DNA from: a virus
DNA length: 36,104 nt
Virus record (IMG/VR): IMGVR_UViG_3300046167_000163
Span: 1-36,104 of that record
Reading direction: 5' to 3' (one strand)
In this document: in pieces, positions 899 through 4,554 of the stretch
Numbering within the stretch: the stretch's first letter is position 1
Layout of the letters: every line of letters starts with the position of its first letter
The notes under the pieces: generated by a model
The model's input: the letters and a program-made list of their open reading frames with translations, nothing else
Told to the model about the DNA's origin: nothing
Databases searched by the model: none
Position numbers and translations under genes: made by a program

Positions 899-1495
899 TC
901 ACTCTCCATTAGGTTCAAAGTTAATTTCATCATCAAACGCCCGGACGTCAATAATTCTTGCCCCGGCAAACTCTTTTGTCACAGCCGCCACCATTTCATC
1001 TGTGCGCACGCTCATGACCGCGCAGACTTCGCTGATATGATACACGGCCCACGTTGGGTACTTGCGCCTGACAGCTGCCAGATCACCGCTGGCGAGGAAG
1101 CAATACGTCTTCCCCTTGAACTCGGCTATATGCCCGTCAACCTTTGGCGGTTCATGGCCATCCTGCCGAGCTTTCACGTTCATCACCTTGAGCGCCTTAA
1201 TCAAGCTCGTGGCTAGCTGTGCGCACAGTGTGTAATCGTCTGCAACCATCGCTGCGTCCAGCTCACCTTTCAGCTCACGATAGCGCAGCGCATATGCCGG
1301 CGGCACACAATTAACCAGCGTATCGCCCCACACTTTGCTGGCCGCTGCTGACGCGAAGGTAAACGGCTCGACCGCTGCCTGCGACCTTGTAGTGGATCGG
1401 CTTGTCCATAGTTTGTATGCTTGCTCTCAAACGTGCCACGATTGGCCATCGCCGCTTTAGCCTTATCCGACTTTGGCTTTTGCTTTTTTAGCCAT
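899..1495 (-). CDS. Conserved phage protein, interrupted by two apparent frameshifts
   Basis: Starting at ATG 1495 the frame gives MAKKAKAKVG and stops. Dropping one A from the A6 run near 1487 gives MAKKQKPKSDKAKAAMANRG, continuing through FESKHTNYGQADPLQGR. Adding one C near 1405 then joins QAAVEPFTFASAAASKVWGD and the long frame that starts with GTG at 1333 and ends at 899. The total span (597 nt) is an exact multiple of three, as expected for one excess and one missing base. The product would be about 198 residues with a basic N-terminus. No family is recognised with certainty. GGGAG lies about 11 bases before ATG 1495. It overlaps nothing upstream and is followed one base later by the 598-897 gene. 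Confidence 0.7.
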
Positions 1496-1499
1496 TGTG

Positions 1500-1612
1500 G
1501 ACCAGCTCCCGTAAACCCTGATAACCCTGCCAGCAGGAGTTAGGACGCAAAGCTGCGCCTCTGGCCCGACTTCGCGCCAGCGAAGGAAGGCGGGACAGTG
1601 GAGCTGCTGGTC
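1500..1612. promoter_or_regulatory. Structured leader or small RNA element, four-stem fold
   Basis: GACCAG (1500-1505) plus CTCC pair with GGAG plus CTGGTC (1600-1612), leaving a 3-base bulge. Inside are three hairpins: CCTGC/GCAGG (1526-1537), AGG-A-CGCA/TGCG-CCT (1542-1560), and CCCG-A-CTTCGC/GCGAAG-GAAGG-CGGG (1565-1594). This predicts a compact multi-branch RNA. On the minus strand it would be the 5' leader of the gene starting at 1495 and its closing stem would sequester the ribosome site. On the plus strand it would be a small RNA ending at the terminator at 1618-1653. I match it to no known riboswitch or tRNA. Confidence 0.55.
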
Positions 1613-1617
1613 GTCTC

Positions 1618-1653
1618 AAAAAAAGAGAGTGTTCGCAAAAGCGAACTCTTTTT
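1618..1653. terminator. Two-way intrinsic terminator
   Basis: GTTCGC-AAAA-GCGAAC (1631-1646) is a perfect 6-bp hairpin. Rightward it is followed by TCTTTTT; leftward it is followed by ACTCTC and seven Ts (1618-1624). It should stop the leftward transcript of the replication block after the gene ending at 1840, and also any rightward transcript crossing 1500-1612. Confidence 0.82.
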
Positions 1654-1674
1654 AAGACCTGCGCCTTGACAAAG

Positions 1675-1839
1675 TGCGTCACTGGAGGTAAATTTTCCGT
1701 AGGAAAATTCAGCAAATCCACTGACGCACTATATAAATAAGGGGTTTGCTCGATTTCCGAATCACCCATAAATTGACCGAATTTCAGCAATGCGTCACTA
1801 CGCGTCACACATGCGTCACTGAAATTTTCCACTGACGCA
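1675..1839. repeat. Cluster of six TGCGTCA(C) repeats, candidate origin (iterons)
   Basis: TGCGTCAC occurs forward at 1675, 1791, 1812 and, with one mismatch (CGCGTCAC), at 1801. Its reverse TGACGCA occurs at 1722 and 1833. Copies 1 and 2 are arms of a 13-base inverted repeat with one mismatch, enclosing the perfect palindrome AATTTTCC-GTA-GGAAAATT. TTCAGCAA and AAATTTTCC also recur. The stop codon of the upstream gene lies at the edge of the last copy. Spacing and strand mix suggest binding sites for a replication or regulatory protein. Apart from these repeats I see no gene between 1654 and 1839. Confidence 0.7.
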
Positions 1840-2205
1840 CTACTCGATAACATCGAAATCATCCTCGTCTTGATCGTCGTTGGCGAAGAACACTGAGTTT
1901 ATCAGCATATGAATTTCCATCCATCCCTCAGTCACCTTTTGATAGCTGATCTGTGCCTTTGCCTTGTGTGGCCAGAAGTTCATCTCCGTTGGCCTGCCAT
2001 TGATTGTGATTGCGCATTGCAGGTGCCACGGCGCTTTCTCGTAGTTTGGCCAATACAGCGGCGTTTCGCCTCCACATAGGTCATACAAATGGTCGGCTAT
2101 GTTTGCGAACATCTGCACGTTGTCATACTGCTCGTAATCGTCATCTCGGTAGAAGCAATCGCTCCAATCTCCCGTCCACTCACGTCGTGTGCTTTTCACT
2201 TCCAT
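1840..2205 (-). CDS. Phage protein of unknown function, early block
   Basis: 121 residues. The ATG shares its first base with the stop of the primase-helicase gene (TGATG), so translation is coupled. The protein is rich in Trp, Tyr and acidic residues, with a DDDYEQYD segment near residue 22, a mixed central part containing YWPNYEKAPWHLQC, and an acidic tail ending DDQDEDDFDVIE. The central part could be a small alpha/beta fold. I do not recognise a family. The position suggests a helper in DNA replication. It is the last gene before the repeat cluster and the two-way terminator. Confidence 0.75.
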   Translation of the reverse strand: MEVKSTRREWTGDWSDCFYRDDDYEQYDNVQMFANIADHLYDLCGGETPLYWPNYEKAPWHLQCAITINGRPTEMNFWPHKAKAQISYQKVTEGWMEIHMLINSVFFANDDQDEDDFDVIE

Positions 2206-4509
2206 CAGTTCATCTCCCCTACTCTGCCCGTCGATACGACGCCCTTGCGCTCCCTGCGCTGGCTTGGGCTGTGATAGACAATTTCCTCCAGCAGACCTTC
2301 GTCATTCCACTGGCGCAGGATTGCCTTTGCCTGCCCTGCTGACTTTGTGTGGTCTAGGTCTGAGAACCTGTAGTTTGTGATGACCGAGCCGACCCAGCGC
2401 TGCTTGTCCTGCGGCCTGATAGAATACTTCTCGCCGTCCTCTGGGCCTTTGTCGATCAGATCAAGCATATTGTTGACCACACGGGTTGTCATACCCGCCC
2501 ACTGATCGGGTAACTTGAACTCAACGGCCACGCCAACATATTCGCCGTTGTCTAGCTTTGTGCTGACCATGCGCCGGTAGATTGCCTTATCCGCTGGCAG
2601 AGGTGCCGAAAGATTGGCTTTCCCGTCATCTACCCGGAAGACACCTGTCGCGCTGGCCTCTGGCACACCGAGCGCCACGGCGTCCTCAAACTTAACTTTA
2701 TTGATAACTCTGGCTGCGCGAGCTGCGCCGATCAGTGAGCCTGCGCCGCGCACGCTGTCAATATCAGCGTCCTCTCCGTTGCCTTTGCGCACATGGTGAA
2801 CCACATGCACAGCGCAGCCAGCCTCTCTAGCCAGCTGGCGCAACATTGCGACCACCTTCTGCACACTCATATTTGAGTTTTCGTTGACTTCGTGCGTCGA
2901 GATGAATGGATCAATTATCACAAGGCCGATGTCGTTGGCTTTTATCTTGTCTCGCATGTGGCTCAGGAAAGCGTCATTGGTCTCGATGCCGTCTCTGGTT
3001 TCCGCAGCCAGCGTGATGCCGATTGTGTCTTCCGCATCCATGAATAGTTTGCCTGCTATCTCTGGGTGCGTGACGTTGTGTTGCTTCATGGCGGCGGCCA
3101 GTCTAATCTGCATCTCTGCCATGTCATCTTCTAGGTTGACGATCCAAACATTTGTTGGCTCATGCACCTTCTCACCCAGCAGCGGCCGACCAGTGACCAC
3201 AGCCAGCGCCTCAACCATTGTGAGCGAGGTTTTACCGATGCCACCAGCTGACGCCGTGACGCTGACAAAGCCGCGAATGTGGTGATGCCCGTAAATCCAC
3301 CGCCTGCGAGGTAAACTTGCCTCATCAATAGTTCCGACCGGCGTTGGCCATTCAAGCCTCTGTACAGGCTCAGGTTGGCTCTCAGGCTCAATCTCGGGGT
3401 CGGGTATGGTGTCAAAGTCATCCAGCCCGTCATCTGGCTCAGGTAACTGTTGGTTGACCTCATCAAACTTACTGGGCCGCAGCTCGGCGGCGTAAGTTCG
3501 CACGGCGGCTCGCATGTCGTTGTCATGTTCGAAGTAGCAGTAAAGATCGAAGGCATCACCCCAGCAAAACTCAGCGCTGGTCTGGCCAATGCCAGCCGCC
3601 CGGTCTGAGCCTGACAGGCTGACCCAGTGCGTGCCGAAATCTTTGGTGGCGTGTGAGCCAGACGTTTGCATTGGGGAGCGGTAGCTGTCTGATCGGCCAA
3701 GTTTCTCGTAACCGTGGCGCAGCATCATGTCGGCTATTGTATTATTACGGTTGAACTCGGCAACTGGATCAACGTCATCGAAATCTTTTCGCTGTTGCGC
3801 ACGATTTTGCGCACGAATTTGACGCTCGGCGGCGGCGCGTTCAGCTGCGATGGCTTCATTCTTGCGGCGAAACTCTAAGTTTGCCCAGACTTTGCTTTCG
3901 GTTGGGATCAGCTAGACCCTCACCGCGATTGCGCAGGCCATGATAAAACTGTGGCTGGCCTAAGTTGTCCCTGCGCGCAGGCGGTACGTTTGGCAGGTAG
4001 ATTGGCTGACCCGTGCGTGAGAGTGCAGCGTCGCATGTGATGCCTTCCTGCTGCATAAGGTCAAACAGAGCGAGCTGTGCGTCAACGTAGTCTTCACCGC
4101 TGATCGGCTCTGACAGCGGGATGAGTGCGCGCCACTTGCGGTTGTCTTCGCTGGCCCCGGATGACGAATAGATCAGTGCGGATGCGTTGCCTGTGACACG
4201 CTCAACGGCGGTCTTCACTTCTGTCAGCGATAAATCACCTTCGTCAACGTCAATGGCCAGCATCCAATACTCGCCGCGTTCACGCTGGGCGGCGTGGCTT
4301 CTGCCGTCATGCTCGCGGTAAGTTGACGGAATGAAAAACTTTGCGTCGGCCTTTTCGGTCGCCTGCGGTTCGCTGACTAGCTTGGCAATTTCGGCTATGG
4401 TGATGCCGTCATATTGTGACCCAGCTTCATTAATGCGAGTGTCGCGCGCACCAGCTGCAATCAGCATGTGTTTCTTGCCAACTTCGCTTGTCTTTGTTAG
4501 TCTGTGCAT
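2205..4509 (-). CDS. Phage primase-helicase, with one apparent frameshift
   Basis: Removing one base from GATCCCAAC (3901-3909) joins the N-terminal frame (ATG 4509, AAAGG eight bases upstream) to the C-terminal frame through PTESKVWANLEFRRKNEA, giving about 767 residues. The N-terminal 200 resemble an archaeo-eukaryotic primase domain: LAIDVDEGD (residues 84-92) holds the acidic metal-binding pair, followed by IYSSSGA and KWRALIPL. A charged linker leads to a RepA/AAA_25-like helicase with Walker A GGIGKTS, Walker B LVIIDPF, a HVVHHVRKG sensor and a GAGSL motif. It would unwind and prime phage DNA. No DNA polymerase is recognised in the genome, so it probably recruits the host enzyme. The separate reading of two genes (2205-3728, 3856-4527) is less likely because coding sequence continues between them. 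Confidence 0.85.
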
Positions 4510-4554
4510 GTTCGGACCTTTCTCCATCCAATCGTGGGTTCGCTTTCATGTTAC

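Follow-up and report, generated by a model that had tools for sequence, protein, structure and literature searches.

A nearly invariant hairpin block beside a putative iteron-type replication origin in marine phages

Phage lambda makes a small RNA, OOP, beside its replication origin. In SaPI and SCCmec, an iteron origin lies downstream of the initiator, and the SaPI Rep protein binds iterons directly downstream of its own gene (PMC7581432). In RSF1010, RepB' primes at ssi hairpins that stand beside iterons (PMC4434180, PMC4234260). pRN1 requires a 100-nt stem-loop, beside a terminator and downstream of the primase-helicase gene, and phages with pRN1-like stem-loops have been reported (PMC4234260).

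The locus described here lies in a virus record of 36,104 bases (the whole stretch analyzed, hereafter the window), whose minus strand holds nearly all large genes. The window's major capsid protein shares 66% identity with its counterpart in Octadecabacter Antarctic DB virus 2, and the order of the replication genes is common to the window and Roseobacter phage CRP-811. Thus, the host is likely a member of the marine Roseobacter group. The region of interest is flanked by a small gene at 1840-2205 and by a gene with its start codon at 1495, and comprises the following features:

899-1495, minus strand: downstream gene (MAKKAKPKSDKAKAAMANRGTF...), with two frameshifts in the window and intact in relatives
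1498-1539, minus strand: variable spacer of 42 bases with the ribosome site GGGAG (1510-1506)
1540-1617, plus strand: rod, an imperfect 78-base hairpin, nearly invariant in the clade
1617-1656, both strands: two-way terminator hairpin, GTTCGC-NNNN-GCGAAC, with A/T runs on either flank
1655-1744: large inverted repeat with arms at 1666-1686 and 1717-1737, containing two opposed iterons
1666-1694, plus strand: sigma-70-like promoter, TTGACA-17-TAAATT, with an iteron in its spacer, pointing away from the rod
1745-1844: further TGACGCA iterons (1812-1818, 1791-1797, and inverted at 1833-1839) and an A/T-rich spacer
1840-2205, minus strand: small gene between the repeats of the putative origin and the helicase gene
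2205-4527, minus strand: primase-helicase gene (AAA_25/RepA-type helicase), split by a frameshift

The frameshifts in the window, one of them at an A6 run, are probably sequencing or assembly indels. In relatives, the primase-helicase is a single 779-residue frame. Owing to frameshifts, the window's frame from the ATG at 1495 ends after 10 codons. Gene starts taken from the window alone are therefore unreliable. The downstream gene (899-1495) has no family match, and Pfam identifies no primase domain type in the primase-helicase, the C-terminus of which gives a sub-threshold match to a MerR HTH. An AlphaFold model of this C-terminus (order H-H-H-E-E) was set aside for its low confidence (pLDDT 41).

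Close relatives of the region were found in more than 40 IMG/VR contigs. A blastn search against phage and plasmid records returned chance matches only and no homologues, the exact core pattern had no match in bacterial and archaeal genomes, and a search of genome contigs for the primase-helicase confirmed none. One contig, IMGVR_UViG_3300046167_000283 (40.9 kb; L087, L090, L105, L106), has the element near both ends in slightly different sequences and is probably a mixed or over-long assembly.

We aligned 28 distinct sequences and counted variable columns with the window itself excluded. Outside the terminator loop, only 2 of the 111 columns of 1540-1654 vary, both in the rod (1577 in the apical loop and 1569 in an internal loop). 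By comparison, the adjacent spacer has 16 variable columns out of 40 (Fisher p 4e-9), and 27 of the 39 four-fold degenerate sites of the downstream gene vary (p 3e-18); alignment columns are not phylogenetically independent, and these values are indications. Noncoding phage DNA that is about 20-fold less variable per column than the neighboring spacer is unusual. The spacer (1498-1539) shows 10.7% pairwise difference and carries 9-base insertions in some relatives. On the other side, near-invariance continues unbroken from 1540-1654 into the inverted repeat at 1655-1744 (3 of 90 columns variable), beyond which constraint is looser through the further TGACGCA repeats to 1844. Within the block, A, C, and T alleles of the terminator loop occur on a stem, bulge, and A/T runs that are invariant, which favors selection over a recent sweep. 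A sweep is also an unlikely cause of the invariance given that both flanks vary. A block that stays near-identical while its surroundings vary argues for an important function, and such invariance points to one that is essential and sequence-specific.

The constrained unit is thus 1540-1654 joined to 1655-1744, and not the stretch at 1500-1617 that was first proposed as an element with a closing stem and three hairpins. The original prediction had picked out a real, strongly constrained element, but its boundaries and structure were wrong. On the minus strand, RNAfold does predict the three hairpins and their closing stem within 1500-1617; however, this minimum-energy fold is limited to the window and near-identical copies. 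Each closing-stem pair fails in 1-5 of 20 homologues, two inner pairs fail in 2-4, and a pair in the third hairpin is lost in 16. The closing stem has its 3' arm in the variable spacer, where most of the third hairpin also lies. The proposed check by covariation gave no compensatory double change in any pair among 20 distinct homologues. This is formally the outcome named beforehand as refuting the proposal, but it arises only because the constrained part hardly varies. When compared with shuffled sequence, the folding energy of 1500-1617 is ordinary on the minus strand (z -0.89) and better on the plus strand (z -2.80); for 1500-1653 the plus-strand value reaches z -4.3, which includes the terminator.

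Folded alone, the invariant part gives an imperfect rod on both strands in which no pair fails, yet it has hardly any variation. As RNA, the rod reaches -36.2 kcal/mol on the plus strand versus -31.8 kcal/mol on the minus strand. As single-stranded DNA, its z is -3.7 versus -1.1, and no shuffle equals the plus-strand value. The change at 1569, seen in L095, would extend the inner helix of the rod. The neighboring hairpin at 1617-1656 satisfies the terminator pattern on both strands, in agreement with the two-way terminator originally placed beside the element.

The view that the element belongs to no known class also held: Rfam gave no match at the gathering threshold and only chance eukaryotic and Chlorobi-1 scraps at E <= 10, and a tRNA/tmRNA search found none. 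The stretch GGACGCAAAGC resembles the core of the c-di-GMP-I riboswitch. We regard this likeness as chance, given that no c-di-GMP family appeared at E <= 10 and that the upstream part is unconserved.

Given its position, the element might be read leftward from a promoter within the origin region and serve as a 5' leader or attenuator for the gene whose start is at 1495. Its placement before this gene stands in that an ATG lies downstream with GGGAG 10 nt ahead of it, although the frame is broken in the window. The element is directly upstream of the ribosome site, whose GGAG could pair with CTCC at 1600-1603 (both are invariant in the alignment), and the leftward terminator could serve as an attenuator. 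However, only this CTCC:GGAG core is kept; the closing stem over the ribosome site is not maintained, and the 42-base stretch that holds the site is variable. The ordinary minus-strand fold and the failure to find a good leftward promoter further weaken this reading. On the minus strand the rod comes after the terminator and thus cannot control it. In addition, relatives lack such a leader and begin the same gene 10-20 bases past the origin dyad. The idea that the element hides a ribosome site is therefore poorly backed by the comparison with homologues, and a leader of any such kind appears improbable.

We also considered whether the block might be constrained as a hidden protein-coding stretch, given that a minus-strand frame of 124 codons (1862-1488) is without internal stop in all 28 sequences and that the 9-base insertions keep this frame. 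Variable sites are not enriched at third codon positions, many of them alter the protein, silent sites are equally invariant, and there is no Pfam or phage protein match. We consequently rejected coding through the block, which we regard as a very improbable source of the constraint.

A rightward small RNA was the other function originally suggested. Such an RNA, about 115 nt long, would consist of the rod and end at the intrinsic terminator (1620-1653), and would work in trans, with a protein or a target in the phage or host as its partner. Several observations are consistent with it. The plus strand folds better (for 1540-1653, z -3.84 versus -2.72 on the minus strand), its order is rod, A-run, hairpin, U-run, and the U-run follows closely behind the G/C stem, as in an intrinsic terminator at a 3' end. 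In addition, the constrained block consists of exactly rod and terminator, with a varying loop on a constant stem. However, 24 distinct regions upstream of 1540 contain nothing that resembles a promoter (mean score 4.47 versus 4.64 for control random segments), and their best sigma-70-like sites differ among relatives. The scan used the Escherichia coli sigma-70 consensus only, so the absence of a promoter is evidence rather than proof. The stretch before 1540 is itself variable, with 9-base insertions, the strong rightward promoter at 1666 points away from the rod, and the constraint runs past the terminator into 1655-1744. The fold and the order of the parts thus stand without a visible start site, and a trans-acting small RNA, although on the whole less likely than not, is the chief alternative to the reading we favor below. 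Alternatively, the block might be an undescribed, nearly invariant structured RNA of marine Roseobacter-type phages, located at the origin's edge, oriented head-on to the replication operon, and made from a non-canonical promoter; we consider this doubtful. If it were true, such an RNA might regulate or prime replication. Between the block and the remainder of the window, no complementary stretch exceeds 11 bases.

The sequence beyond the terminator has features of a replication origin. The inverted repeat at 1655-1744 is strongly structured as DNA (z -6.6 to -7.7), and the TGACGCA 7-mer occurs in five copies overall compared with about two in shuffles. We infer that 1655-1844 is a probable replication origin. 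The promoter-like site at 1666-1694, which has the third-best score in the window, would drive rightward through the iterons and antisense to the replication genes; it could yield an antisense or an origin-activating transcript.

Repeats downstream of the helicase gene, a feature of iteron-type origins (SaPI/SCCmec/P4-like), were found in 12 lineages including CRP-811: a 7-mer specific to each lineage, in alternating orientation, recurs 5-11 times downstream of the same primase-helicase gene, where shuffles have about two copies. In the eleven other origin regions, which span L015, L033, and CRP-811 to L155-L160 (helicase end only ~53% identical), the repeats end in an inverted repeat just ahead of the next gene. 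The iteron sequence differs among groups of related phages. In this clade, one small gene separates the helicase from the repeats. L015, L033, L038, L040, L044, L122, and L155-L160 share the layout but differ in their iteron 7-mers. It is as if origin specificity had been swapped among lineages, here together with the helicase C-terminus. In the distant relative L058 (2900-3400), a homologue of the small gene at 1840-2205 sits after the origin and not before it.

The rod-terminator block is confined to this clade, always with the TGACGCA iteron type, and is absent from all other lineages examined that have the same kind of primase-helicase. Such a module is therefore not a general requirement of this type of origin. 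Two rod patterns each match 32 IMG/VR contigs and the iteron pattern matches 34, and these are essentially the same contigs. The rod was never found without TGACGCA iterons; the iterons occur alone in two contigs, where the matches lie near contig ends.

Taken together, we tentatively favor an interpretation of 1540-1654 as a clade-specific accessory hairpin module of the origin that acts as folded plus-strand DNA. The extreme constraint, its unbroken continuation into the iteron dyad, and the strict co-occurrence with one iteron type support this, as do the origin-like layout in twelve lineages and the better folding of the plus strand. Counting against it, a small RNA gene on the plus strand would end in exactly this succession of rod, A-run, hairpin, and U-run. 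In the mechanism we envisage, the primase-helicase probably attaches to the iterons at 1675-1840 by its C-terminal domain and would open the A/T-rich part of the origin. The rod and the neighboring dyad could then be extruded from the plus strand as a hairpin of single-stranded DNA, which may be the place of priming or helicase loading, while the two-way terminator would block transcription into or out of the origin. If so, the locus points to a family of small marine-phage origins built on iterons, in which iteron types are swapped and a hairpin module can be added.

The described systems resemble this locus in different parts. The likeness to lambda OOP RNA would be that of a small terminated RNA beside an origin and against the direction of the operon; in the phage described here, however, the strong promoter and the terminator face apart, and the terminator precedes the promoter. 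Origins of the SaPI/SCCmec type share with the phage a helicase gene followed by intergenic short repeats, whereas the 115-bp rod-terminator module is an addition of the phage. Iteron binding by the phage protein is presumed, and the likeness implies no staphylococcal homology. The oriV of RSF1010 (ssiA/ssiB) combines a RepA-type helicase, iterons, and adjacent hairpins as the phage does, and a hairpin on one exposed strand beside iterons, the ssi feature, is present here as the plus-strand rod. The likeness is one of layout; the rod is 78 nt long, whereas ssi is a 40-nt site with one simple hairpin. Finally, pRN1 and the phage both place a terminator and a large stem-loop downstream of a replication gene; pRN1 has no iterons and its stem-loop is poorly conserved in sequence, whereas the phage block is nearly invariant.
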